Shown: piece by piece, positions 49,776-64,000 of the stretch
Position numbering within the stretch: the first letter of the stretch is position 1
Layout of the letters: the number at the start of each line of letters is the position of its first letter
Assembly (NCBI GenBank): GCA_017934745.1
Contig: JAGBIY010000041.1
Span: 48,070 to 112,069 of the forward strand
Reading direction: 5' to 3'
Length of the DNA stretch: 64,000 nucleotides
DNA from: Treponema sp.
GTDB lineage: Bacteria > Spirochaetota > Spirochaetia > Treponematales > Treponemataceae
Notes under the pieces: model-generated
Databases searched by the model: none
Told to the model about the DNA's origin: nothing
Seen by the model: only the letters and a program-made list of their open reading frames with translations
Made by a program: the position numbers and the translations under genes

Positions 49776-50501
49776 TCACCTCGCGCAGAAAACGCGTTTT
49801 CTTAAGAATTCGCGCAGTTCCCTGCCGGTCGGGTCTGATTGCGGATTGGCTTGCCGCCAATGCGTTATCGGGAAATCGCTTCCGAAACGGATTCGTTCTG
49901 AGAAGCCCCCTCCGCGCAATGCGGAGATCGTCGCTCTGTCCGCCATCGCCGTGTCCGCAAACACATTCGGGTAAGTTTTAATCATATAAAGCGTTTCACA
50001 AATCGGTCGGCAGTGCGCCATCTGCACAAGGGAAGCGGGGTGCGCCTTTATGAACGGCTCGAACAGTGTCGGCGGATAATCCTCGTCGCAGTGAATTAGA
50101 ATCATTTTGTCGTGCTTTTCCGCATACAAAAAAACTTCTTCTGCAAGAGAATAGATTCTTTCATCTCCAAAATTCCACTTTTGCGCCCGCGGGTGAATCT
50201 TGAAGCCGTCGTATGCGATTTCGCCCATAGCCTGCTCTGTGGAAATGCCGGAAAAACGCACGTCAGGCACGACCCAATAGAGCGCGTGCGCTTTGATTCC
50301 GATTTCCGTCGCGGCCGAAAGAGCGTCTTTTACTTCACCGCGGACACCCTCGTACAAATCTTTTGGGGGACAATAAAGACAGCTTGTGGTGCTGGAAAAA
50401 TACACCTCGTCCACACCGGAAGCCTTTAGCGCGGAAAAAACGCGGTCTGCAAAGTAATATGCTTTGTCAAACTGCCCGATGTGGACGTGGTAGTCTGTCA
50501 T
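49776..50501 (-). CDS. Amidohydrolase-family metal-dependent hydrolase
   Basis: 241 residues, Amidohydrolase_2/TIM-barrel type. Metal residues: HVH in TDYHVHIGQ, His in GFKIHPRAQKW, His in MILIHCDED and Asp in FGSDFPITHW. Substrate unknown. Its ATG overlaps the upstream radical SAM gene's stop by 4 bases (50498-50501), so both were one transcription unit, possibly a peptide-modification or catabolic pathway now broken by the IS. Confidence 0.82.
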   Translation of the reverse strand: MTDYHVHIGQFDKAYYFADRVFSALKASGVDEVYFSSTTSCLYCPPKDLYEGVRGEVKDALSAATEIGIKAHALYWVVPDVRFSGISTEQAMGEIAYDGFKIHPRAQKWNFGDERIYSLAEEVFLYAEKHDKMILIHCDEDYPPTLFEPFIKAHPASLVQMAHCRPICETLYMIKTYPNVFADTAMADRATISALRGGGFSERIRFGSDFPITHWRQANPQSDPTGRELREFLRKRVFCAR

Positions 50502-51196
50502 TTTGAAACAGCCTTGAGTTTCTCGTTGCGCCAGTCCAAGACAATCTGCTTGTTCTTTGCCGCGACCGCGCAGAAATGGCGGTTGATTTCAAGCGGATTT
50601 CCCGTCGGAGACTCGTTGGCGTTTCGCACCATGCACGGAGCGCAGAAAGCCGCCTTGTCGCACTTGCAGCATTCTCCGCCGCCCAAGTCTTTCATCTTCA
50701 AGCCGCGGAGCCATTTGATTTTCTCGCTGTTGTCCCAGATTTCCTGAAGCGGCGTTTCGTTCAAGTTGCCCAATATCATTTCCTGCCAGCCCGCGCACGG
50801 ATACACGTTGCCGTTCGCCACCATGCAGCAAGAAGAAATGCCCACGCCGCACAGTCTGCGCTCCGGGTTGAACTGGTTTTCGTTGCACCTCTGGACGAAA
50901 TCGGGCGCGAGAATAGCCTTTTGATAGTCAACATCGTCAGCCATGATGTCGCTGATGACTTTTCCCGCCTCTTCCACAGTCAAGCGGTTGGCGAGGTTCG
51001 ATGTTTCGTGGTTGTACTGCGCCATCATGATGTAGTCGGTCTGCGCGCGGATTTTGTGCTCGTGGCACCATCTCAAGACATCGCCGTAATCGTCCTTGTT
51101 TCCCTTCATCGTGGGGCAGGAAACATGGAGCGGCAAATCGTTTTCGATAAGGCGCAAAATGTTGTCGCGGGTCTTGTAGAAGCTGCCTACAAGTTT
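50498..51196 (-). pseudogene. Radical SAM/SPASM maturase, N-terminal half lost to an IS3 remnant
   Basis: About 230 residues of the C-terminal half remain: FYKTRDNILRLIENDLPLHV (end of the radical SAM barrel), then a SPASM domain with CGVGISSCCMVANGNVYPCA and GGECCKCDKAAFCAPCM, which holds extra Fe-S clusters in peptide-modifying enzymes. The N-terminal CxxxCxxC is missing; the frame ends where transposase sequence begins near 51196. The usual family length is about 400. Probably inactive. Confidence 0.8.
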
Positions 51197-52070
51197 TTAA
51201 GCATTTCAAGGCAGTGCAAGCTGATTGGGATTTCACGGAGCCAGTATTATTACGAACCGAGCTCAGAGCAGGATGAAAAAGATTTCAATCTGCTTGTGAA
51301 AACCAAGGAAGTCCAGATTGAGCATCCGTATTACGGTTACCGCAGAATCTGGCGTGAGATAAATAAAAACGGTGGGGACACTACAGAAACAACTGTACGC
51401 CGTGTAATGCGAAGATTCTGGATTACGGCAGTATTTCCGGGCAAGAATCTTTCTAAGGCCTGTAAATATCACAAGAAGTATCCGTATCTTCTTAGAAATA
51501 AGGTAATCAGATATCCAAATCAGGTATGGTCAACGGATATCACTTACATAAAGCTGCCGACAGGAAATGTTTACCTGATGGCAATAATCGACTGGTTCTC
51601 AAGAAAGGTCTTGAGCTAGCGTGTATTCAATACGATGGATGCGCTGCAGTATGCAAATCTTCTGAGGGAAACAATCAAAGAATACGGCTGTCCTGCAATC
51701 TTCAACACAGATCAGGGAAGCCAGTTTACATCTGATGTTTTTTTCAAAGTTCTTGTCGATTACGACATCCAGATCAGCATGGATGGAAAAGACCGGGCTT
51801 TGGACAACATCAGAATTGAGCGTCTTTGGAGAAGCCTCAAGTACGAGGACATCTATCTTAAACGCTACGAAACAATGAAAGACTTGAAGACCGACCTAAA
51901 TGCCTACTTCAACTTCTACAATACGGCGAGGTTTCATCAGTCGCTGGATTACAACGTACCTGATGAAATGTATAAATGCTTCCAGTACAATGAACTGGAA
52001 AGGAAAAAGGCTGCATAATTTTTTACACCTTAAACCTGTAAAAAAATTGTGTTGACTAAATAGCGCATTT
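51190..52070 (+). mobile_element. IS3-family insertion sequence remnant
   Basis: Holds an OrfB-type transposase but no OrfA, so the left part of the element is lost. The left junction falls inside the radical SAM gene. The right end is uncertain, probably in GTGTTGACTAAATAGCGCA near 52050-52070. No target duplication can be recognised. Confidence 0.75.
51197..52018 (+). pseudogene. IS3-family OrfB transposase with in-frame amber codon
   Basis: The reading frame runs from 51197 (SISRQCKLIGISRSQYYYEP, HTH_21-like) through the rve core: first Asp in VWSTDITYIKLP, second in NTDQGSQFTS, Glu in IRIERLWRSLKYE. One TAG at 51617-51619 splits it where IS3 relatives have Trp (S-W-R), the same frame continuing after it. 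No start codon or OrfA remains. Inactive unless the amber is suppressed. Confidence 0.85.
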
Positions 52071-53930: not shown

Positions 53931-53993
53931 TGTGATGTAGCCCACTCCGTTGTAGTTTCGGATATAGGTGTCCTTTTTCTGTCTGTAAAGCAT
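53930..53993 (-). pseudogene. Orphan N-terminal fragment, PqqD-like or rSAM-partner start
   Basis: ATG 53993 with GAGG upstream starts MLYRQKKDTYIRNYNGVGYI and then runs out at the AmrS fragment. The TYIR..G.VGYI pattern recalls leader-binding partners of radical SAM peptide maturases, but this is a weak recognition. Two partial copies lie at about 54765-54792 and 55065-55095. Confidence 0.35.
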
Positions 53994-54014
53994 TTTGTAC
54001 CTCGTTAGAATTGC

Positions 54015-54167
54015 GGTCATTGAGCGAAGTCGAAATGACCGTTTCTGTGTTTTTCATGGTGGTTTCGACTGTGCTCAACCACCGTTTTGTGTTTTTCATG
54101 GTGGTTTCGACTACGCTCAACCACCGTTTTGTGTTTTTTATGGTGGTTTCGAATGCGCTTAACCACC
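54015..54167. repeat. Tandem hairpin repeats (period 42)
   Basis: Four 26-base palindromic units: 54015-54040 (GGTCATT / AATGACC stem), 54058-54083, 54100-54125 and 54142-54167 (GGTGGTT / AACCACC stems), linked by GTTTTGTGTTTTTCAT-like spacers. A degenerate fifth unit is at 55797-55822. Confidence 0.85.
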
Positions 54168-54235
54168 GTTTGTGTCTATGTTTTTTCGCCTCCGTGTTCT
54201 ATACTGTGCGTATCACACACAAGGAGGTGTTTTTT

Positions 54236-54457
54236 ATGCATGATTTGGCCGAACGAGAGCAGGTCATGGAGCTTGTCCAAACGTTGCCCGACGAGCAAAT
54301 CCACTATGTGCTGAATGTCATTCAGTCTTTGCCGCAATCTGCCCCAAAAAATGATTTTTCTCTTGAAACCGCCATTGACGACGCGCGAAATCAAAAAAAT
54401 TTGACAGGTCCGTTTTTCAGCGCAAGAGATGCCGTTGCCGCAATGCTGGAGGATTGA
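54236..54457 (+). CDS. RelB/DinJ-like antitoxin (73 aa)
   Basis: AAGGAGG stands 8 bases before ATG 54236. The helical start MHDLAEREQVMELVQTLPDE and acidic body fit small antitoxins that pair with YafQ/RelE toxins. The toxin gene follows after three bases. A TATACT box at 54200-54205 gives a short leader. The specific antitoxin family is not certain. Confidence 0.7.
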   Translation: MHDLAEREQVMELVQTLPDEQIHYVLNVIQSLPQSAPKNDFSLETAIDDARNQKNLTGPFFSARDAVAAMLED

Positions 54458-54460
54458 TTT

Positions 54461-54739
54461 TTGTACACAATCAATTTCACCAACAGAATGAAGCACGATG
54501 TGAAGCTGATGAAAAAGCGCGGGAAGGACATCGGAAAACTTGAAGCTGTTCTTGATGTACTCTCAAAAGGAGAACAACTTCCCGAAGCAAAACACGACCA
54601 TCAGCTTACAGGCAATCTAAAAGACTTCCGCGAATGTCATATTGAACCCGACTGGCTCTTGCTGTACCGCATTGTAGAAAATGAGCTGATTCTTTCCGCC
54701 ACCGCCACTGGCTCGCACGCGGACATTTTTGGTCTTTAA
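54461..54739 (+). CDS. YafQ-family mRNA interferase toxin
   Basis: 92 residues, RelE/ParE superfamily: MKHDVKLMKKRGKDIGKLEA, then KHDHQLTGNLKDFRECHIEP and DWLLLYRIVENELIL, the YafQ pattern with catalytic His and Asp candidates. Cleaves mRNA at the ribosome in relatives. The start is TTG at 54461, with GGAGG seven bases upstream inside the antitoxin's end. Confidence 0.87.
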   Translation: MYTINFTNRMKHDVKLMKKRGKDIGKLEAVLDVLSKGEQLPEAKHDHQLTGNLKDFRECHIEPDWLLLYRIVENELILSATATGSHADIFGL

Positions 54740-54822
54740 TTGCTCCCTTGCGCAATATGTTTCTGTCTGTAAAGAATTTTGTACCTCGTTTGTAAAAAAG
54801 TTTTTTGTGCCAAAACGGCAAA

Positions 54823-54850
54823 CGGCAAGGAAACTTTCGCTTCCTTGCCG
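54823..54850 (-). terminator. Terminator of the precursor-peptide operon
   Basis: Perfect 10-bp stem CGGCAAGGAA / TTCCTTGCCG, 8-base loop, followed on the minus strand by TTTGCCGTTTT. Weak T-run. Confidence 0.6.
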
Positions 54851-54878
54851 GGCTAATGTTTTTAAGACTCTGCTATGC

Positions 54879-55049
54879 TTATTTCAACTGCTTTATGATT
54901 ACGCTTAACAGTTCCTTTAATTTTTCAGCATCTGCTCTGTTCAACTGTATTTGCGCATAATCACCAGTTTCCAAGTCGCATGGTGGAATCCCGTGTTTTG
55001 ATTTTTCCTCAAATTCTTCTAATTTCTTAAAACGTTCATTGTCTTCCAT
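54879..55049 (-). CDS. Small protein of unknown function (56 aa)
   Basis: AAGGAG six bases before ATG 55049. Sequence MEDNERFKKLEEFEEKSKHG, a PPCDLETGDYAQIQL middle and a leucine-rich helix KLKELLSVIIKQLK. One Cys. Third gene of the small operon behind the Cys-containing peptide. Function unknown. Confidence 0.55.
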   Translation of the reverse strand: MEDNERFKKLEEFEEKSKHGIPPCDLETGDYAQIQLNRADAEKLKELLSVIIKQLK

Positions 55050-55105
55050 ATTTTTCTCCTTTGCAGTTTCGGATATAGCTGTTCTTTCTTTGCCGCTAGG
55101 GCACT

Positions 55106-55348
55106 TTAGTTTTTGCATTTTTCGTATTCCTCTTTGCAGACTTCATCATAGGCTTCATCCACATTGACATAATCAGGATGTTTTTCTGCCTGCTCCTTCA
55201 ATTTTTGATAGACTTGAAGTTTCAAAGTGGCAGGAATGTTTAGGCCAGGTATTGGAATTTCACCGTTTTGTCTATCTATCCAAAAACCATCATTTGCCAT
55301 AAACCAAGTTGAATCTTCATAGGTCTGGTTGTTTGCGATTATTCTCAT
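55106..55348 (-). CDS. Small protein of unknown function (80 aa)
   Basis: GGAGG before ATG 55348; MRIIANNQTYEDSTWFMAND, then GLNIPATLKLQVYQKLKEQ and a charged tail with two Cys (EVCKEEYEKCKN). Between the precursor-like peptide gene and the 56-residue gene. It could be an immunity or recognition protein, but nothing in it shows this. Confidence 0.55.
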   Translation of the reverse strand: MRIIANNQTYEDSTWFMANDGFWIDRQNGEIPIPGLNIPATLKLQVYQKLKEQAEKHPDYVNVDEAYDEVCKEEYEKCKN

Positions 55349-55375
55349 GTTTTTCCTCCAAAATTAAATTTCATC

Positions 55376-55406
55376 GGGAACTGGCAGTTTTTTTTCCACA
55401 GTTCCC
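55376..55406 (-). promoter_or_regulatory. Hairpin between the Cys-peptide gene and the next gene
   Basis: GGGAACTG (55376-55383) pairs with CAGTTCCC (55399-55406). On the minus strand no T-run follows, so it more likely stabilises the peptide mRNA or partly uncouples the next genes. Confidence 0.45.
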
Positions 55407-55440
55407 GACTTTTTATTGTTTCTAGAACAGTCATTACCCC

Positions 55441-55596
55441 CTATGCCGTTCTTTCACAATTTTTACACTGCCTCTGCCCAGGAGCACTAGTAGTACCCCA
55501 GCCAGCGCCACTAGCGTTTTGGTTTGCAGGGCAACCCGCCGCGTAGCTGCCAGATGAGTTGTTCTGTGCGATTACCTGTGGTTTTGTGTAAGCCAT
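55441..55596 (-). CDS. Cys-containing small peptide, candidate RiPP precursor (51 aa)
   Basis: MAYTKPQVIAQNNSSGSYAA is a leader-like N-terminus; the second half is Gly/Ala/Ser/Asn-rich with three Cys (GCPANQ at 22, CKNC at 44 and 47) and no hydrophobic core, so it is not a folded domain. AAGGAG seven bases before ATG 55596. Heads a small operon with its own hairpin behind it. Near it are a broken radical SAM/SPASM gene and fragments of a leader-binding-like protein. Precursor role is inference. Confidence 0.5.
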   Translation of the reverse strand: MAYTKPQVIAQNNSSGSYAAGCPANQNASGAGWGTTSAPGQRQCKNCERTA

Positions 55597-55908
55597 TTTG
55601 TTTTCTCCTTTTGAGTTTATGTTTTTCACAATCGACGATTGCGGACAAGAGCATTTCGCAATTCGATTTTTCGAGCGAAGCGTTGAAAAATCGAATTGCA
55701 GTTGCCTCCGTCAACTGCAATGGTATACCATTGCAGCACCCGCGCGCGGGCGGCGGATTTTTGGGGGAGTACAGAGGCTTTCTTGTGTTTTTGTATGGTG
55801 GTTTCGAATGCGCTCAATCTCCGTTTGCAGTTATGGTTTTTCGCATCCGTGTTCTGAGTGAAGCTTCTCGCCTTGAATTGAACGCAACTTTGAGTTTGAA
55901 AGATTTCC
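55597..55908. other. Gene-free, palindrome-rich stretch
   Basis: Besides the palindromes at 55658-55736 it has a GC-alternating block CGCGCGCGGGCG from 55741 and a degenerate copy of the 42-base hairpin unit at 55797. No convincing coding frame on either strand. Confidence 0.6.
55658..55736. repeat. Cluster of perfect palindromes
   Basis: GCAATTCGATTTTTC (55658-55672) pairs perfectly with 55685-55699. TTGCAGTTG (55696-55704) pairs with CAACTGCAA (55712-55720). A 22-base perfect palindrome centred on GGTATACC spans 55715-55736. The last two exclude each other, so alternative folds exist. Confidence 0.85.
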
Positions 55909-56463
55909 TCAAAAAATCTTATTTTGAACGGTGGAGAAAAATCTTTGGATAAACTGTTCGCGCTGATTTGTAACATTTTGGCGAATGCCGTCGGCGACAC
56001 TGACAGTGCTCTTTTTTAATTCCATTACCGCAACTGCAATACCGTTTATATAAAGAACGATATCAGGCCGTTTTTCTACATTACCATTTACTGTTACTTC
56101 TTCCGCAATGTAAAAATTGTTTTTCTCCGGCTCTTCCCAGTTAATGAAATAAACCGTCTTGGGAGATTCTCCAGGATGCTCTGCAAGTTTAAGACCATAT
56201 TTTAAAATGCGGTAAACTTCTTTGTTTGTGTGGTATGGAGATTGAGAAAAATCTGCGAGTATCTTGTAAAACTCATTTTGAAGAGATTCAATAAATGCAG
56301 CTCTATAGCCGTTATCTGTAAGAAAAGATTTCCAGTCACCCCATCGAACATTGTAGTTCTCCGACTCTTCCAGATTACCAAGATATTTATATCCAAGTTC
56401 CTTTTGAAAAAATGTAACAATGCGGTTCTGGGGTTCGCGTTCAGGGTGAGCTGATTTTGTCAT
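55909..56463 (-). pseudogene. hsdR: Truncated type I restriction subunit HsdR (N-terminal domain)
   Basis: 184 residues: REPQNRIVTFFQKELGYKYL, TVYFINWEEPEKNNFYIAEE and the nuclease segment RPDIVLYINGIAVAVMELKK with the PD..(E)xK residues. It stops after NQREQFIQRFFSTVQNKIF, where HsdR normally goes on for about 800 residues of helicase. Start at 56463 overlaps the regulator gene. The restriction motor is gone, so cleavage by this locus is unlikely. Confidence 0.85.
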
Positions 56464-57838
56464 TCGGATTCCTCCTGGTTTACAATTTCCCAATATCCGG
56501 TTTTCTTACTTCCTTTACGGATTATTTTACCACTATTCTTTAATTCTCCAATATGTCTTTTTATGGTTGCGGAAGAAACTCCTAATTTTTGTGCATATTC
56601 ATCATAACTGCAATTTGGATTTTTTTTTATAAGGTCAAAAAGATTTATCGGGTCATTTATCGGGTCATTTATCGGGTCGTTTACAGTGTCATTTGCCTTA
56701 AACATCATCATAATGTCATTGGGATGAACTGTATATTCCGGTTCGGCAATTCCATATTCCTTGCAAAGATTGCAAATTTTTTCTATACTGCGGCTCCAGC
56801 TTTCTATAAAGCCCGCTCTAAAGAATGTATTCGCAATATTCGGGTTATGGGGAAGTGAGCGATGTTTTTGCATTAAAGTGTCGGCTGTCCAGTTGGCAGG
56901 AAAAACACAGTCATTGCTGATATAAAGCTTATCCCTGTAAACGCTGATTTGCACAGGCACGCCAACAGAAAAATCCTGATGAATGAGCGCATGAACACCG
57001 CTTCTCGAACGGCATCTTTAGGGAATGGATAATGCTCTATGCGGGTGATGTTGTCATAAGAAATTTCTGTAGTCAGATATTTTGTGTAAAGCAAATCTAT
57101 AACGCGGTCTGCCTGAATCATTAGAGAACCATGAACTTCATCCTGATAGCGCAAATCTGCGTCAGTTTCAAAAAAACCGATTTTTACAAATGAACCTGTT
57201 ATCCATTTTTCCGGATTGCGATGAAATAGCAAAACAGCTGCCCGCTTAAGCAAAGTCCCGTCAAGAAGATTAAGTTTTTCAAGTAAATCCTGATTCGAAA
57301 GCTTCAAGTCATCCTTACTCATTCTTCCACTGCGGATTGCTTCACGATGGAAAATATCAAAGCTTTCTTTATCGAGGTCATCAACGCTTACATTTTCAAG
57401 AGGAACAGAATCCCAGTTTTTACCTGTCTTACGCAAAAGAAAATTAGTCAGCGCCGAACCTTGCAAAAGCTGTTTTGTGCTTCCAGTTCTATAATGATAC
57501 TCACCCTTGTAATTAACAGGATAAGGATTTTCTTCAACAGTGATTTTTATAACATCAAGTTCGTTCTCAGTAATCAAATCCACATCAACAATCAATCCAA
57601 GGGCATCACGAACTTTATTAGGAATATCTTCCATAAGTTTCTTTGAATCAGCAACGCCACAAACAGAGCCATCATCACGCTTGCCAATATAAAGCACACC
57701 GCCCTGAGCATTTGCAAAACGTCGCAATCCGCTTCGCGTCTTGCTAAACGAGTTTTGACAAGCAAAACTCGCGCAAATTCATTTGAGATATTCATCGCGC
57801 CAAGATTCTTTGTATTCGATTAACTGGGATTCGGACAT
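56460..57838 (-). pseudogene. AlbA/Schlafen-type ATP-binding regulator, broken in two places
   Basis: Starts MSESQLIEYKESWRDEYLK at 57838, then TGA where relatives have Trp, a palindromic insert (about 57722-57772), and on in the same frame with RRFANAQGGVLYIGKRDDGS (AlbA_2). A one-base loss near 56997 shifts the frame into PVQISVYRDKLYISND and a winged-helix end (YDEYAQKLGVSSATIKRHIG). A run of 12-base repeats (56644-56691) codes NDPI units. Such regulators are often embedded in type I R-M loci. Probably inactive. Confidence 0.8.
57749..57771. repeat. Palindromic insert in the regulator gene
   Basis: CGAGTTTTG (57749-57757) and CAAAACTCG (57763-57771), loop ACAAG. It interrupts the conserved W-I-C-G-F-A-N-A-Q-G-G segment of the AlbA domain. 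Confidence 0.75.
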
Positions 57839-57839
57839 G

Positions 57840-58934
57840 TTAGTGACTCCTTAAGCGAATTATTTTTTTATTACATATATCAATAGAAGGATATAAATTA
57901 CAACCACCCAAACAATATTCTCTTTTTATACAAGACATGCAGTTAGTTTCTTGTTTTTTTCTAAATTGATTAAATTGATCAGAAGTCCAAACTTCAGAAA
58001 TTGTTTTTCCTTTTAATGAAATACAGAATTTCCTTTCTGTTGAATCAAAAGAACATGGATATGCATTTAATTCGCAATCAATATACATTGAAAAACGCGC
58101 AGCTTCACAAAAATCAATTGAACTAAAGTCAATTGTATTTGAATAAGAAAGTAACGCCGGTGTGAAACAAGTGTCAAAACCAACATCAAAATTAAAATGA
58201 GTCTTATCTATAATATCTATAAGCTCTTTTAATTCTAAATCATTATAAGACAATGTTTTATTCAAAATACCAAAACCTGAAGGCTTATAAAGTAAAAAAA
58301 TAACAGCATTTATACCTTGTGGAAATAAATTGTTTTTCAATCTAAAAATCGCTTCTGAAATAGTATCCTTTGATAAAACATAATGTATGTTTGTAGTACA
58401 CCCATGCTCCAAAAATAAATTAATTGCTTTAATAGTATGAGGATTTGTTTCTTTATTATTAGATAAATTTGAATAAAATGAAACTGCAACTGCACCACAA
58501 TAGATCTTTGTTAATTCAGCTTCCAAATCTGTTAATAAATATCCACTTGTTGTATAATTCGGAATAATCATATTTTCACGTGTTATTTTTAGTATTTCTT
58601 TAAACAATTCATGTTTATTTGGATCTCCAGCACCTCCTAAAGCAATTTGAAATACTTTACCTTTGCACTGATCTATAATTTTTTTATAATCGTAATAATT
58701 CATATTTGGTCGTTTTAGAATCTTTGCTTTTTGATAACAATCTACGCCAAAATTTTTGCAAATATTATATTTACTCGCCAAACATGTTCCCATAATTCCT
58801 ATATCCAATAACTCAGGAAACGAGCGCATTATAGGATTTTTATTCGACTGTAAGGAATCTGAACGAAATAAAAAACCATTTTGCTCATTAAAATATTCGT
58901 AGAATTGGTATTTTTTATCTTTATATACTATCAT
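57840..58934 (-). CDS. Radical SAM/SPASM enzyme with unusual Cys spacing
   Basis: 364 residues, AT-rich. The cluster region LLDIGIMGTCLASKYNICKN then FGVDCYQ has C51, C59 and C66: C-x7-C-x6-C, not CxxxCxxC. Glycine motif IALGGAGDPNKHELF matches the radical SAM GGE position. C-terminal SPASM-like Cys: SIDFCEAARFSMYIDCELNA, YPCSF, then NCMSCIKREYCLGGC. Likely a peptide/protein-modifying enzyme. It follows the GFVTNSSST protein gene by four bases, and that protein is the natural candidate substrate. Confidence 0.8.
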   Translation of the reverse strand: MIVYKDKKYQFYEYFNEQNGFLFRSDSLQSNKNPIMRSFPELLDIGIMGTCLASKYNICKNFGVDCYQKAKILKRPNMNYYDYKKIIDQCKGKVFQIALGGAGDPNKHELFKEILKITRENMIIPNYTTSGYLLTDLEAELTKIYCGAVAVSFYSNLSNNKETNPHTIKAINLFLEHGCTTNIHYVLSKDTISEAIFRLKNNLFPQGINAVIFLLYKPSGFGILNKTLSYNDLELKELIDIIDKTHFNFDVGFDTCFTPALLSYSNTIDFSSIDFCEAARFSMYIDCELNAYPCSFDSTERKFCISLKGKTISEVWTSDQFNQFRKKQETNCMSCIKREYCLGGCNLYPSIDICNKKIIRLRSH

Positions 58935-58938
58935 TTAT

Positions 58939-59316
58939 TTACCAGACACAATTTAATCCATTAAGGTAAAAACCTTTTGTTTCAAATTCAATTGACTCAC
59001 AAGTAAAAAAAGATTCTATTTCATCTGATTCGGAAGAAGTTGAACCAAAATAGATAAAACATCCTTTTTTCGACATTTTTTTATAAATTTTGTCTAATTT
59101 TCCTCCATATTGTTTTTCTATTTCATCAGTAATTGGACCAATCTTTTTGACAGAGTTTAGAATAACATTACAGAGTTCCCTCATTACATCAGCAAAGATA
59201 GATTGTTTTGAATCTGTTAATTTTTCATATAAATAATCATAAGACAATTCTTTATCAGAAATGATAATAAAATTGGTAGAAGAACTGTTTGTGACAAATC
59301 CCTTTCTAATCTTCAT
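58939..59316 (-). CDS. Protein with N-terminal KIRKGFVTNSSST motif, possible modification substrate
   Basis: 125 residues. The first 20, MKIRKGFVTNSSSTNFIIIS, carry the GFV(T/S)NSSS-type start that I recall from many small bacterial and phage proteins of unknown role. The body has Cys at four or more places, including KKGCFIYFG, FFTCES and NCVW at the end, and an acidic ESDEIES stretch. Overlaps the upstream 131-residue gene by 11 bases. Substrate status is inference from the neighbouring radical SAM gene. Confidence 0.6.
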   Translation of the reverse strand: MKIRKGFVTNSSSTNFIIISDKELSYDYLYEKLTDSKQSIFADVMRELCNVILNSVKKIGPITDEIEKQYGGKLDKIYKKMSKKGCFIYFGSTSSESDEIESFFTCESIEFETKGFYLNGLNCVW

Positions 59317-59701
59317 AAATATAAAACTTTCCTCCGAAATAATTATTCAATTTTTCACGAACACTTTTTACATAAAGCAAATTATTATGCGAGCTAAATC
59401 GTTCTTCCTTAGAGCATCTTAGAAAGATTGATGATAAGCTATTGAGCTCAGATTCAATTAGATTATAATGACAATCCAAGTATTCGCTATAGGTATCAAA
59501 CTCTTTTCTGTAATACTTTAAATATTCTAAATACACACTATAACTATTTGAAAATCGTGTTCGATAAATATTCTTTAAAACGATACCTATAAATCCTTTA
59601 CGTGAAATATTAAAAATTTTATAAGATAAAAAAATCTTAAAATAAATGATAGGCAAGAAGAGTACATAATCTTGTTTATCAACGAAATTAATTCTTTTCA
59701 T
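59306..59701 (-). CDS. 131-residue protein of unknown function in the ATPase/rSAM operon
   Basis: Basic, Tyr/Phe/Asn-rich, with one possible membrane-associated start (YVLFLPIIYFKIFLSYKIF) and a helical remainder (YLEYLKYYRKEFDTYSEYLD). AGAGG before ATG 59701. Overlaps the ATPase gene by 14 bases and the GFVTNSSST gene by 11, so all are made from one mRNA. No family recognised. Confidence 0.6.
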   Translation of the reverse strand: MKRINFVDKQDYVLFLPIIYFKIFLSYKIFNISRKGFIGIVLKNIYRTRFSNSYSVYLEYLKYYRKEFDTYSEYLDCHYNLIESELNSLSSIFLRCSKEERFSSHNNLLYVKSVREKLNNYFGGKFYIYED

Positions 59702-61967
59702 AATACAAAACCTCTTCTTCTAATTCTTTTATAAGAGTATCTTTTTTATATGTTTGTATTACATTTGACTTCAATATATTCTGTGCTTTATTCTTTAGTT
59801 CAATACAATTTGTATTTTGAATAATATTATGCAAGATTGAAGTATAATTTGGACATAATTCCATATAATTTTGCAATGTATACATATCATCAATTACAAT
59901 TCCAATTATGGCAAAGTATTCCTGACAATCAATACATTTTTCATTTCTCAGTGAAAACAATAGTCGCTTCAAACACTCAACGATATGTTCATTTCTAGAA
60001 TAATAGGGATAACCATAACTAGTATAACATCCCAGTACATTTTTCAAATCTGAATAATTACTATACGAGTAAACAAGTTTCAATAAAATAATCAACTTAT
60101 TTTTAATTCCATTTTTCTCCTGATGGAAAAGATATAGAAATAAATTATCTATATCCCGATTCTCTATCAATAAGATAGATGCAATATAATTTAATTCAAA
60201 CCCTTCCAGCTCTTCTTCAGAATCCATAATGACGGATATTGCAAAACTATTAAACAATCTTTCTTGAGCATGATTCCATAAGTCATTATAAAAGTCCTGA
60301 GCCAATAAACCTTTACAGATATCAATTTGTTTATTTGCTTTAAAATGCAAATACAGATAATGTAAAATTCCTTCTAATGGTGATAAATACCCCTTTTTTA
60401 AGCTCTTCAAAAAAGCATATAAATTTTCTTTTGAATCATTGCCATTACCTTCTTCAATTTCTTTATTAAATTTAATGACCAAATATCTTGCTAAACAATA
60501 ATCTCTTAGTTCATCAAAAGGAAAATACACAACTTCTTCGCTGAATTCTGCAATCGAATTTTCATTTTTTATAACTTTTCTTCCTGTTAATAAATTATCA
60601 TCACTTATTGCTCGTATAAAAAGAATTTGCTGTTCATTATTAGTTACTTCTTTTATTGATATATAATTGAATATATTTTTTTCTATCATCTTTTTTGAGA
60701 TCATATCTATAAATTCTTCAACATTTTCTTTGGAATATTTTTTTTCCAAAGATCTTATATATTCCTGATATATTTTAAATCGATACAAACTTATATCTTG
60801 ATTTGTTTTTCCTTCATTTACTTCAAAGTATAAACGTAGCAACAATAAAGAAGTAGAGAACAATTGTTCAGAAATGAAAGGTAATGGTTTTGTAACATTA
60901 AAATTTTTACAATACCGTTCCAGGAGTTTTTCTTTTGCTGGTATATCTCTATAATAATTTAAGTCAATTATATAAGGTTTTTTATTCATATCATCTATTA
61001 ATGATGAAAACCTTTGTTCAAAGTATTCTTGCCGACAAGTAATTATAATTTTTACTTTTGAAGTTAGGAGTTTATCTATTTCTGAGAATAATTGTTTAGA
61101 AAAATCCATTGCATCATTTTCATTAATTGCATCAATAATGATATAAGTTTCAAAGCATTTAAAAAATAAATAATATATACCGCTTGCTATTTTTTTTAGA
61201 AAATAATATAGATTCAAACGAGAAAGCAAATAATCACGGAATGGTTCTTGAATATCTTTTGCATTTATAAAAATAACTCTCTTCTTTAGTTTCAAGAGTA
61301 AATCAACAATATTGCAGACTAAATTTGTTTTTCCATTTCCAGCGGTTCCCTTAATCAATATAAATTTTGATTCAATAATCTCACATTTTTTCTTTTCAGT
61401 TTTTAATGTCTCCTGATACCAATAGCTATTTATGTCTAATGTGTATTTATAATCTGGGAAATAAGACGAACTGTCTTTTAAGTATTCATGTCCTGAAAAA
61501 TATGAAAGATGTTTATCAATTCTATTCTTTATTGTTACTAGTGATGAAAAAGAAGACAATCTATGATGCTTTAGGTATTGTTTACTATATTTTCTAAAAT
61601 CTTTCTTTCCTTTATACAAATAATTAAAACTTGAAATAATCTTTTTCCGCCACTTTATACCATAAATAAAATAACGTAATAGTTCTTTTGTATTTGATAG
61701 TTCAACAAACAAGAGAGGAATATATTTTTTATTTTTCATAAACTCTTGTAATTTGTCTTTAGAAAGTGCATTTATACGACGTTTATTTGAAAAGAAATAT
61801 ATTATTACAAAAAGAAAAATGAGACATACAACTATTAACCACCACCAATTTTGAAAATCAGAAACATAATTCGAGACGGTAGAAATTAACGAGTCTTGTT
61901 TAGAAGTAGTTTGAGCAGATTCAACAACAACTTCTTCTATTGAAATCTCATTTACAGAATTGTCCAC
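59688..61967 (-). CDS. Membrane-anchored NACHT/STAND-like P-loop ATPase
   Basis: 759 residues. One membrane helix at 41-59 (WWWLIVVCLIFLFVIIYFF), Walker A IKGTAGNGKT at 205-214, Walker B-like TYIIIDAINEND at 274-285, and the sensor-like IIITCRQEYFEQRF at 307-320, as in NACHT ATPases. The C-terminal 400 residues are helical and repeat-like, a plausible sensor. Start is GTG 61967 with AGGAG six bases upstream, ten bases after the hsdS stop. Defence-type signalling is inferred from architecture and place. Confidence 0.75.
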   Translation of the reverse strand: MDNSVNEISIEEVVVESAQTTSKQDSLISTVSNYVSDFQNWWWLIVVCLIFLFVIIYFFSNKRRINALSKDKLQEFMKNKKYIPLLFVELSNTKELLRYFIYGIKWRKKIISSFNYLYKGKKDFRKYSKQYLKHHRLSSFSSLVTIKNRIDKHLSYFSGHEYLKDSSSYFPDYKYTLDINSYWYQETLKTEKKKCEIIESKFILIKGTAGNGKTNLVCNIVDLLLKLKKRVIFINAKDIQEPFRDYLLSRLNLYYFLKKIASGIYYLFFKCFETYIIIDAINENDAMDFSKQLFSEIDKLLTSKVKIIITCRQEYFEQRFSSLIDDMNKKPYIIDLNYYRDIPAKEKLLERYCKNFNVTKPLPFISEQLFSTSLLLLRLYFEVNEGKTNQDISLYRFKIYQEYIRSLEKKYSKENVEEFIDMISKKMIEKNIFNYISIKEVTNNEQQILFIRAISDDNLLTGRKVIKNENSIAEFSEEVVYFPFDELRDYCLARYLVIKFNKEIEEGNGNDSKENLYAFLKSLKKGYLSPLEGILHYLYLHFKANKQIDICKGLLAQDFYNDLWNHAQERLFNSFAISVIMDSEEELEGFELNYIASILLIENRDIDNLFLYLFHQEKNGIKNKLIILLKLVYSYSNYSDLKNVLGCYTSYGYPYYSRNEHIVECLKRLLFSLRNEKCIDCQEYFAIIGIVIDDMYTLQNYMELCPNYTSILHNIIQNTNCIELKNKAQNILKSNVIQTYKKDTLIKELEEEVLYYEKN

Positions 61968-61977
61968 ATTATACTCC

Positions 61978-62535
61978 TTATTTTACCAACCTAATCTTTC
62001 CCGTCAAGAGTTGCTGCATCATGGCGGTTTTGAGGTTGTGGTATTTTTCTAGTTTTGCCTTTAAGGTTTCTATTTCTTTGTCCATGCTGGAAAGAACATT
62101 GGCGATGGCAGTTTGTTCTTTTCTTGAAAACTCTATTACATTTAGTTTCTTTATGATTGTTGTACTTAATCCATCCATAATTCCACCTACAGATAATGCA
62201 ACAATCTGCTTTTGAATTAAATCACTTTGGAAGAAGTATTTAAAGAAATTTTTATCCATGGAATTCAATAATCTTAATCTAACTAGGTGAGAATCCATAA
62301 TTCCTACACCAACATTTTCTGGAACAATATCACATTTACCAATTGTCCCCATTGTAGAAATTACAAAATCTCTTGGCTTTAATTCACATGATTGTAATTT
62401 TTGAAAATGTTCTCTTGTTAGGAATCTATAACAATATTCAAAATTACCTGAATAAATATTCTCCTGCCCGTAGACTTTATAAAATCCATTAGTATAGTAA
62501 ATATTCTTTTTTAAGTTGACTTCCGAATGGACCAA
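61978..62535 (-). pseudogene. hsdS: HsdS specificity subunit, second half (after a frameshift)
   Basis: About 185 residues: NGFYKVYGQENIYSGNFEYC, DFVISTMGTIGKCDIVPENV, HLVRLRLLNSMDKNFFKYFF, and the conserved helix KEQTAIANVLSSMDKEIETL plus MMQQLLTGKIRL. This is the second target-recognition domain and coil of type I HsdS. Its natural front, GPFGSQLKKEY, lies in the previous frame at 62490-62560. With one frame correction both parts would join. Confidence 0.82.
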
Positions 62536-64000
62536 TTTTTAGTTTATCTTTTGAAGAAATAAGAATATCCATTATGTTCTTCACTTCCCAATCATCTGGG
62601 ATGGGGCCGAGTTCGGTTTGTTTGTAGGTTGGGGATTTGGTTTGCGGGGCAAAACCTGGGAGGCGTTTTTTGCCGGTGAGGAGATTTTGCATTGTGCCCT
62701 GTTTGATGTTCTTTTTCTTTTGGATGAGTTTTTCTGTTGTGGAAATAAGGGCATCCACATCGGAAAGGGCTTTTGCGATTCGCTGCTGTTCGTTTTGGTC
62801 TGGAGAAATAACTATATTAAATTTCTTAAAATCACTATTTGTTATTTGATTTATTGTTGCTCCAAGATTATCTGAGACTTGTTTTTGTACTAAATCTGAT
62901 TGCCAAACATAAAGTAAATATTTTTGATTTATTGTCTTACTTCTTAATACAGTCATAAATGCACCAAATGCCATTCCTACTGCATTTTTGGTAATAAGAG
63001 AACTTTTACCAATTAATGTTTTACTTCCATTTCTAACACAAATGAGAATATCGTTTTCTTTTACAATAGCACGCTCAGATATAGGCATTTGAACATAAAC
63101 ATTATCTTCAAAGCATAATTGCCCATTCTTTATATTTGAAGAACGTAAAACTAAAGTTCCATGTTCATATATATTCTCAGGAGAATATGTTAATCCTGTA
63201 AAAGTATCTGCGACTTCTCCAAGCTGCCCCAAATCCGCAGCCTTGAATTTTGTGATTTTGACTTCCACAACAACATAGCAATGAAGATTAGTGTTGTAAA
63301 AAAGCATATCCATGAATTTCTCTTCACTACCCACTTCTAGCCGAAACTCACGTCCCATATATGCAAAACCGCGTCCCAGTTCCAGCAGAAACTTTTCTAT
63401 ATTTGCTATCAAAGCGTCTTTGAGTTCTGCTTCTTCGTATTTTTCGCGAATAGCAAGAAAATCAAATGTGTATGGGTCTTTCGTGATTTGTTGCGCAAGC
63501 TCTCCTTGAGGTGCAGGCAAGGTGTTTGAAAAATTAGTGATTGCTTTGCCTTGCCGCTCGTACAAGTCTGTATCAAGAAAATTCAAGAGAACCTGGCGGC
63601 TCCAATTGTTTTCTCTCGTTTTGTTTACGAAGAAAATAGCCTTCTTTTCATTGCTCTTGCATTTATCGATAATTGTAACATGATGTCCCAATGGAATAGA
63701 AAAAAGTTCTTTCATGCTGAAATCGTCAACAGCCTGTTGACGATTTTCAACATCTTTATATAACTCATAAAAATACTTCATATATTTTAGATTTGTGGGA
63801 GACAAGCCTTTTACACCCGGCAATTCATTTTTTAAGTCATTGCTCAGTCTTTTATAAAATCCACTGCCGTATCTATTTTCACTCTGTTTTGAAACAATAT
63901 CTTTTCCAACCGACCAGTAGAATTCAAGATAGTAATTCAGTACGGCAGAATGCGCCTTTAACTGCTGGCTCAAATACCGTTCTTTAAGTTCCTGTAACCA
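62489..64000 (-). CDS. YhcG (DUF1016) nuclease-like domain fused to HsdS first half; runs off the right edge
   Basis: The first 245 visible residues are YhcG/PDDEXK-like: YWSVGKDIVSKQSENRYGSG, GLSPTNLKYMKYFYELY, LPAPQGELAQQITKDPYTFD and FYNTNLHCYVVVEVKITKFK (nuclease core). At ADLGQLG the chain passes into HsdS: EVADTFTGLTYSPENIYEHG, the TRD, then NEQQRIAKALSDVDALISTT and MQNLLTGKKRLPGF, and a second-TRD start ending in a premature stop. The frame is open to base 64000, so the N-terminus is outside. Confidence 0.8.
   Translation of the reverse strand, partial: WLQELKERYLSQQLKAHSAVLNYYLEFYWSVGKDIVSKQSENRYGSGFYKRLSNDLKNELPGVKGLSPTNLKYMKYFYELYKDVENRQQAVDDFSMKELFSIPLGHHVTIIDKCKSNEKKAIFFVNKTRENNWSRQVLLNFLDTDLYERQGKAITNFSNTLPAPQGELAQQITKDPYTFDFLAIREKYEEAELKDALIANIEKFLLELGRGFAYMGREFRLEVGSEEKFMDMLFYNTNLHCYVVVEVKITKFKAADLGQLGEVADTFTGLTYSPENIYEHGTLVLRSSNIKNGQLCFEDNVYVQMPISERAIVKENDILICVRNGSKTLIGKSSLITKNAVGMAFGAFMTVLRSKTINQKYLLYVWQSDLVQKQVSDNLGATINQITNSDFKKFNIVISPDQNEQQRIAKALSDVDALISTTEKLIQKKKNIKQGTMQNLLTGKKRLPGFAPQTKSPTYKQTELGPIPDDWEVKNIMDILISSKDKLKIGPFGSQLKKEYLLY

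Follow-up and report, generated by a model that had tools for sequence, protein, structure and literature searches.

The stretch analyzed here, a window of 64,000 nucleotides from Treponema sp. (assembly GCA_017934745.1, contig JAGBIY010000041.1, positions 48,070 to 112,069), carries on its reverse strand a cassette of four AT-rich genes. The first, which has a GTG start, encodes a STAND/NACHT-type ATPase of 759 aa with an N-terminal membrane anchor (59688..61967). It is followed by genes for a 131-aa partner protein (59306..59701), for a 125-aa FVTNSSST protein with a C-terminal tryptophan (58939..59316) and for a radical S-adenosylmethionine (rSAM)/SPASM enzyme of 364 aa (57840..58934). At the first two junctions the frames share 14 and 11 bases, and 4 bases separate the third gene from the rSAM gene. 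The ATPase start lies ten bases from the stop of hsdS, and an AAGGAG sequence read by eye (61974..61979) is a possible ribosome-binding site of the ATPase gene. The G+C content is 25-31% across the cassette versus 44-54% at 45-52 kb of the window. The first-pass annotation of this DNA, which had described four AT-rich genes that overlap or nearly touch and an ATPase start ten bases from hsdS, was thus correct in its layout.

Relatives of the cassette were collected through the rSAM enzyme. A translated search with the window rSAM gave seven plasmid records, four of which were opened (Rhodobacter, two Agrobacterium and Rhizobium). In all four the order was STAND gene, ~121-aa protein, FVSNSSST protein and rSAM, as in the window, the 121-aa gene being unannotated in one record and the STAND gene lying in two pieces in another. 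A five-row rSAM alignment, with all rows from quartets, was used to scan species genomes and IMG/VR. The genome scan confirmed 103 rSAM relatives, of which the best 80 of 103 were kept, and IMG/VR contributed 10 loci, so that together with the window and the four plasmids the set comprised 95 loci. Using iterated profiles, the complete quartet was found in the same order in 59 of these 95 loci, a figure that is not a rate because the loci had been gathered with patterns from quartet rSAMs. That the four genes should stay together in other genomes had been set beforehand as a test, and they do so. Because the same four genes recur in the same order, the quartet is not a chance arrangement, and we regard it as virtually certain that it forms one functional unit.

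Dropping seven near-copies left 52 non-redundant quartets. The records of the quartets bear the labels of 12 phyla, namely Bacillota, Pseudomonadota, Bacteroidota, Thermodesulfobacteriota, Campylobacterota, Mycoplasmatota, Cyanobacteriota, Spirochaetota, Nitrospirota, Acidobacteriota, Planctomycetota and the archaeal Microcaldota, with many of the records being metagenome bins, several labels consisting of one record each and the one for Mycoplasmatota stemming from a locus that is nearly a copy of one from Bacillota. The 59 quartets include three on viral contigs and the four on plasmids. In 46 quartets (without L008, L010, L020, L051, L056 and L065) the pairwise distances of the four proteins correlated at 0.84-0.95, the permuted maximum being 0.32 (500 permutations per pair). 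These correlations, which are raised partly by shared host descent, show joint inheritance and not contact. Among 147 related genomes a close rSAM was present only in the window's own genome, the five other matches being weak.

We then considered what kind of protein the ATPase is. Domain scans of the window ATPase gave matches to NPHP3_N (1.1e-5), nSTAND3 (1.1e-5) and NACHT (0.002), with NPHP3_N alone above cut-off. The protein matched the PADLOC Avs2 models at 3e-11 and four other quartet ATPases did so at 1e-17 to 4e-25, while a profile made from the window protein and three SMEK-type STAND proteins matched the solved Avs2 structure 9o4e at 2.8e-8. Its motifs are a Walker A sequence, GTAGNGKT (aa 207-214; 61326..61349), YIIIDAINE (aa 275-283) and IITCR (aa 308-312). 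All 52 non-redundant STAND proteins contain a loose GK[ST] pattern, and 50 of them a Walker B pattern.

The N-terminus is the part that differs between quartets. In the window ATPase a transmembrane-like segment (aa 42-60; 61788..61844; mean hydropathy 2.73) occupies the effector position, and such a segment is found in 9 of the 10 quartets of the window clade in the rSAM tree described below, the exception being L020, the listed frame of which starts late. In L009 the N-terminus is instead a SMEK_N domain (3e-42), and the profile built from the window ATPase and three SMEK-type STAND proteins also matches, at 1e-35, the Mrr domain solved for an Mrr-APAZ Argonaute system. SMEK is described in the literature as a nuclease domain of short Argonaute systems (PMC10810196). 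Trypsin models match the STAND N-terminus of L065 and L070 and, weakly, that of L069 (0.0027), whereas in L083 the trypsin-like protease is a separate gene. An Avs1a-type metallo-beta-lactamase (MBL) is encoded upstream in five quartets, L065, L068, L069, L070 and L083 (1e-36 to 1e-82). No pair of Avs1a MBL and trypsin-like Avs1b was found among the window genes scanned. Judged from its sequence, the quartet ATPase belongs with the Avs2-like STAND NTPases and has an exchangeable N-terminus, putatively a membrane anchor, a SMEK/Mrr nuclease or a trypsin-like protease. According to Tuck et al. (PMC12799240), MBL/trypsin pairs are proteolytically activated DNA nucleases in AVAST and Hachiman and are common to Lamassu and DRT too. 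The occurrence of such a pair in quartets is the strongest indirect argument for an antiviral role.

The two small window proteins had no convincing match in domain scans. Likewise, neither small protein of L009 had a model in NCBIfam at E 1e-5, and when profiles of the two small quartet proteins were searched against solved structures, no match was convincing (best E 0.89 and 0.075). In the 52 non-redundant quartets the third protein opens mostly with MK[IV][KR]x[DG]FV[TS]NSSST[SN]F; residues N10-T14 (NSSST) are invariant in 52/52 and the last residue is tryptophan in 51/52. In the window this N-terminal tag reads MKIRKGFVTNSSSTNF (59269..59316) and is the candidate target of the rSAM enzyme. 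The AlphaFold model of the tagged protein has a folded body, with a mean predicted local distance difference test (pLDDT) score of 81, and residues 2-9 have a pLDDT <50; the tag segment is thus predicted to be floppy. The 131-aa protein gave a family profile match of 2e-16, and its model had a pLDDT of 78.5 and a predicted template modeling score (pTM) of 0.62. When the profile of the second protein was aligned to that of the tagged-protein body, hhalign returned 95.6% (E 1e-8), and 97.3% with the tag left in, as opposed to at most 0.5% when unrelated segments served as controls (six comparisons) and at most 0.4% in six column shuffles. L008, L010 and L065 did not enter this comparison, nor did second proteins whose length was unusual. 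The order of helices and strands is also alike in the predicted models of the two proteins. We conclude that the second quartet protein is, at the level of profiles, a homologue of the tagged body without the tag. The profile comparison with its controls speaks against the second and third proteins being unrelated.

The window rSAM contains a SPASM domain (PF13186, 9.6e-6), and its cluster cysteines follow a CX7CX6C motif, not CX3CX2C (C51-X7-C59-X6-C66; 58737..58784). The three cluster cysteines and the following Tyr67 are invariant in 37/37 aligned rows, and the cluster loops are longer than in CX3CX2C relatives. There are seven SPASM cysteines, C276, C294, C332, C335, C341, C345 and C354 (57873..58109), the first two of which are invariant and the others conserved in at least 90% of the 37 rows. 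The enzyme thus combines the two marks of a SPASM maturase, the SPASM cysteine set and an adjoining candidate substrate gene. The solved structures nearest to the family profile are 5v1q (listed as 'Radical SAM'), SkfB (6efn) and PqqE (6c8v). We take 5v1q to be SuiB, and all three are presumably peptide modifiers. Every equivalog-type rSAM model of NCBIfam scored far under its cut-off.

In a tree of 90 rSAMs made by a quick method (without L045 and six near-copies), the quartets fall into two deep groups. One has the canonical CX3CX2C motif and covers many phyla. The other consists of 10 quartets, the window among them and mostly from Clostridia, with CX7CX6C or CX6CX6C. Beside it lie 29 STAND-less loci and phage contigs, mostly CX7CX6C too. 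The T4-phage rows and L102 are on long branches, and their placement is unsure. The motif labels were assigned with a simple pattern and look odd in the extra-cysteine rows L019, L030 and L098 and in L042 and L097, the cluster loop of which is truly different. We also observed more unusual cluster spacings (CX6CX6C and a CxC-containing variant) in L042, L097, L022 and L047, all of the same rSAM clade.

The tag is not restricted to quartets. Among the rSAM loci lacking a STAND gene (counted without L080, L086 and L102), in 32/33 the 6.5 kb around the rSAM gene contain between one and six tagged genes. These number 61 in total and encode proteins of up to 530 aa. Sixty of the 61 proteins were compared, one 47-aa tagged frame being left out, and formed 23 body families unlinked by BLASTP at E 1e-3; the families are BLASTP-distinct, with remote kinship possible, and one is probably (90%) and one surely (99.5%) kin to the quartet body. 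Because the search pattern for these loci held NSS, only the third serine, conserved in 61/61, counts as a result. Six of these STAND-less loci are viral contigs. On the viral contigs L093-L098 a single rSAM gene adjoins an array of three to six FVTNSSSSS proteins, the bodies of which are mostly dissimilar. In L084 and L085 (Myxococcota records) the rSAM is accompanied by tandem NSSST proteins whose body is that of the quartets, three and two in number, with no STAND gene in view. In L037, L044 and their kin a gene of ~280 aa lies upstream of the rSAM and a protein of 467-530 aa tagged VTNSSSE is encoded downstream; three of these were scanned, and none had a Pfam match above cut-off.

The same pairing is seen in phages. 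Of 50,697 phage records, 174 contain the rSAM and 175 the tagged protein, in T4-like Pseudotevenvirus/Slopekvirus, with near-equal counts per host name, these records being close relatives that should be weighed as few events. The first 40 aa of the window tagged protein match phrog_7397 (E 0.0011) and the window rSAM matches phrog_7293 (1.4e-20). Two phage records that were examined have two tagged genes each, ~20 kb from the rSAM. In Enterobacter phage phi5 (L154, 2612-5706), an FVTNSSS-type protein, ORF28, lies one gene from ORF26, a von Willebrand factor A (vWFA) protein, an arrangement that recalls the vWA systems described by Kaur et al. (2020).

At the level of whole genomes, 12 genomes behind the loci encode one tagged protein in 11 cases and two in one. 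Among 299 Lachnospiraceae, 5 genomes encode the tag (E 0.001), and all 5 are among the 6 that encode the rSAM (E 1e-30). Without the center genome, which had been chosen for having both, this makes 4 and 5 of 298 (hypergeometric ~2e-8 by hand, kinship ignored). Among 297 Rhizobiaceae, tag and rSAM are both found in one and the same genome, the center, which shows no more than that neither was seen alone. The 147 relatives of the window genome contain the tag in the own genome and in G144. The guess that the partner is rSAM-modified gains from these findings, because the FVTNSSS N-terminus pairs with the rSAM also where no ATPase is encoded, and we consider it probable on the sequence evidence that the enzyme modifies the tag.

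The explanation that competes with this on the same data is that the rSAM acts elsewhere, its target being RNA, a nucleotide or a different residue within the bodies, and that FVTNSSS is a docking or localization signal for the enzyme or the STAND protein. A shared tag on 23 BLASTP-distinct body families is just what a docking signal would produce, and sequence reveals no residue chemistry. We nevertheless find docking doubtful, as the profile is nearest to peptide modifiers and the SPASM cysteines are present, as the Asn-Ser-Ser-Ser-Thr core is invariant in the 52 quartets and as the third serine is kept in all 61 tagged proteins of the STAND-less loci.

To place the quartets in their genomic surroundings, we took up to three genes (120-1500 aa) from each side of 31 quartets, 183 genes in all, together with 92 control genes. 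The control genes came from five genomes, four of which have a quartet and one a STAND-less rSAM, and were taken in 14 arbitrary stretches. At 1e-10, 201 PADLOC families were matched by 91 flank genes and 191 by the other 92, as against 11 by the 92 control genes. As these counts are families and not genes, several models being able to match one gene, and as four of the flank matches (Avs1a/LmuA/RTasMBL) are MBL genes already counted with the trypsin variant, the contrast shows a direction and not a fold enrichment. The defense reading of the first-pass annotation is supported in two respects: the ATPase matches Avs2 in PADLOC and in the solved structure, and genes beside quartets match defense models. 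From homology, effectors and neighbors taken together, we infer that the quartet very probably serves defense.

How far the cassette agrees with described systems was examined case by case. With Avs2 the quartet ATPase shares the STAND P-loop core with Walker A and B and the N-terminal effector. It differs in length, the window protein having 759 aa versus profiles of 1317-1576 positions, in score (22 bits for the window and 52.6 for the SMEK-type L009 versus a curated cut-off of 1000) and in the window effector, a membrane anchor; moreover, the quartet consists of four recurring genes whereas Avs2 is a single gene with a long C-terminal sensor. The likeness to Avs1a/Avs1b and the other MBL-trypsin pairs of Hachiman, Lamassu and DRT is the MBL upstream of five quartets, but the trypsin-variant quartets add two small proteins and an rSAM, and the window is devoid of the pair. 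The words 'radical' and 'SPASM' do not occur in the main text of PMC12799240. SMEK-type quartets have their N-terminal domain in common with the SMEK/Mrr-APAZ short Argonaute nucleases, yet they encode neither Argonaute nor APAZ and the domain serves as a STAND effector. Kaur et al. (2020, PMC7159879) describe FtsH-ternary vWA-MoxR conflict systems with an rSAM and a peptide effector. What these have in common with the cassette is the notion that, within a conflict system dependent on NTP, a partner is modified by an rSAM, but the NTPase is another one, a whole protein takes the place of the peptide and the string NSSS is absent from that text. Finally, the Pseudotevenvirus and Slopekvirus phages with phrog_7293 and phrog_7397 have a related rSAM and tag, but in the two examined no STAND gene stands beside the rSAM and the tagged genes are remote from it. 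Hence the cassette resembles an Avs STAND system but falls outside Avs2 by score, by length and by not being a single gene, and the window quartet falls outside Avs1 as well. In open-licence PubMed Central no paper contained the motif strings, and among the matches listed there we found no description of the four-gene set, no counterpart of the rSAM-tag pair alone and, for the strings CX7CX6C and CX7CX2C, no paper that was about rSAM enzymes by its title, in agreement with the earlier remark that no described system with this gene set is known.

Taken together, we lean towards reading the quartet as a mobile immune cassette of the Avs-like STAND kind, in which the rSAM modifies the tagged partner. 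The STAND ATPase would be a switch carrying a replaceable N-terminal effector, and the two homologous small proteins would do the sensing or licensing in place of the C-terminal sensor of the Avs2 type. The dedicated rSAM/SPASM enzyme would modify one or more Ser/Thr residues of the MKIRxDFVTNSSST tag post-translationally; our guess is that a Ser/Thr side chain is oxidized or cross-linked. The modified tag would then let the small-protein pair keep the STAND protein off, which is the least sure step, and whether the pair is indeed a clamp or sensor we regard as evenly balanced. Infection would disturb the pair, the ATPase would oligomerize and the effector would act, in the case of the window by membrane damage. 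More tentatively, MKxRxDFVTNSSS may be a portable modification tag that is read by one rSAM family and that phages attach to arrays of mutually dissimilar proteins, bringing the enzyme along, with the cellular STAND cassette acting as a guard based on this chemistry and the FVTNSSST protein as a decoy target. A phage rSAM, phage tagged proteins or interference with modification would in that event trip the STAND switch, a possibility to which we give little weight.

Several observations weigh against an immune cassette with a modified partner. The argument for defense is indirect and draws on homology, effectors and neighbors. The TCR-like sensor pattern is found in only 41/52 STAND proteins, and in 3/59 quartets (L010, L020 and L056) the STAND gene lies in two frames. 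Fold searches with the model of the tagged protein gave nothing convincing in the PDB (best E 0.32) or among viral models (best E 0.029, TM score 0.33). The pairing of tag and enzyme has exceptions: the tagged gene of G144 runs off its contig and no rSAM was found in that genome, G282 has the rSAM but shows no tagged gene in the surrounding 7.5 kb, L092 holds just a cut piece of a tagged-type gene and the generic rSAM record L102 was matched at E 0.0095 only. The pairing itself could mean docking and not tag modification. Moreover, the window quartet lies in a decayed locus and might itself be idle.

A toxin-antitoxin-like cassette for addiction or plasmid maintenance, in which the rSAM-modified protein is the antidote to a STAND-gated toxin, would account for the occurrence on large plasmids and viral contigs, for the membrane and nuclease effectors and for the sporadic distribution (rSAM in 1/297 and 6/299 genomes, centers included). 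Given flanks rich in defense models and a STAND core and an MBL/protease pair that belong to proven antiphage systems, we judge it unlikely, and the ideas of addiction and defense overlap.

Still less probable is a cluster for a bacteriocin or another ribosomally synthesized and post-translationally modified peptide (RiPP), with the FVTNSSST protein as precursor and the STAND protein as regulator. An rSAM/SPASM gene adjoining a small gene is the usual RiPP layout, and the enzyme does match RiPP maturases, though far under their cut-offs. However, the body is conserved to its final residue (tryptophan in 51/52) and predicted to fold, the motif is N-terminal in proteins of ~100-530 aa as opposed to a short peptide with an N-terminal leader and a variable C-terminal core, no exporter is among the four genes (the flanks were not searched for one), and neither exchangeable effectors nor an Avs1a-type MBL would be typical of a RiPP cluster.

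The surroundings of the window cassette had been described as a type I restriction-modification (R-M) locus. This holds for the position and not for a working locus. On the same strand, a DUF1016/YhcG nuclease fused to hsdS, with hsdS broken into two frames, lies on one side (61978..63973), and an AlbA_2/HATPase_c_4 gene split over two frames and an N-terminal piece of hsdR, a frame of 194 aa, lie on the other (55909..57727). Since the contig ends where the window ends, hsdM is out of view. The R-M locus is thus decayed, the quartet frames themselves being open, and the link between cassette and R-M system is here positional alone. That the cassette is an accessory of the host type I system, for example one controlling HsdR, is suggested by its place between hsdS and hsdR but is hardly credible, with type I methylase models matched by 1/91 and 0/92 flank genes (among the matches listed, 25 of 201 and 25 of 191 families), no hsd gene in the (incomplete) annotation up to 6 kb from the four quartets on plasmids, and broken R-M genes around an open quartet.

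Other features of the window were recorded. The N-terminal part of the DUF1016/YhcG nuclease is joined in frame to the HsdS specificity domain ahead of the hsdS break (62492-63973). Short direct repeats (67 nt x4 and 52 nt x2) occupy 53945-55855, their last copies near the end of the hsdR frame. The regions 49776-51157 and 55441-55629 contain a second rSAM/SPASM gene of 219 aa, seemingly cut, an adjoining gene that is hydrolase-like by eye and a 62-aa cysteine-containing frame (MAYTKPQ...CKNCERTA) that looks RiPP-precursor-like by eye, with no NCBIfam match at 1e-5 for either of the latter two. IS3-type transposase-like frames, likewise read by eye, adjoin the cut rSAM gene (50576-52018). A RelE/YafQ-family toxin (TIGR02385, 2e-24) is encoded at 54461-54739, with a likely antitoxin, by eye, directly upstream.

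If the immune reading of the quartet is true, protein-modifying radical chemistry would join prokaryotic innate immunity in a STAND/NLR-type system that spans 12 phylum labels, one of them archaeal. The rSAM and FVTNSSS would then constitute a new enzyme-tag pair, which would offer a handle on recurring unknown genes of T4-like phages and viral contigs.

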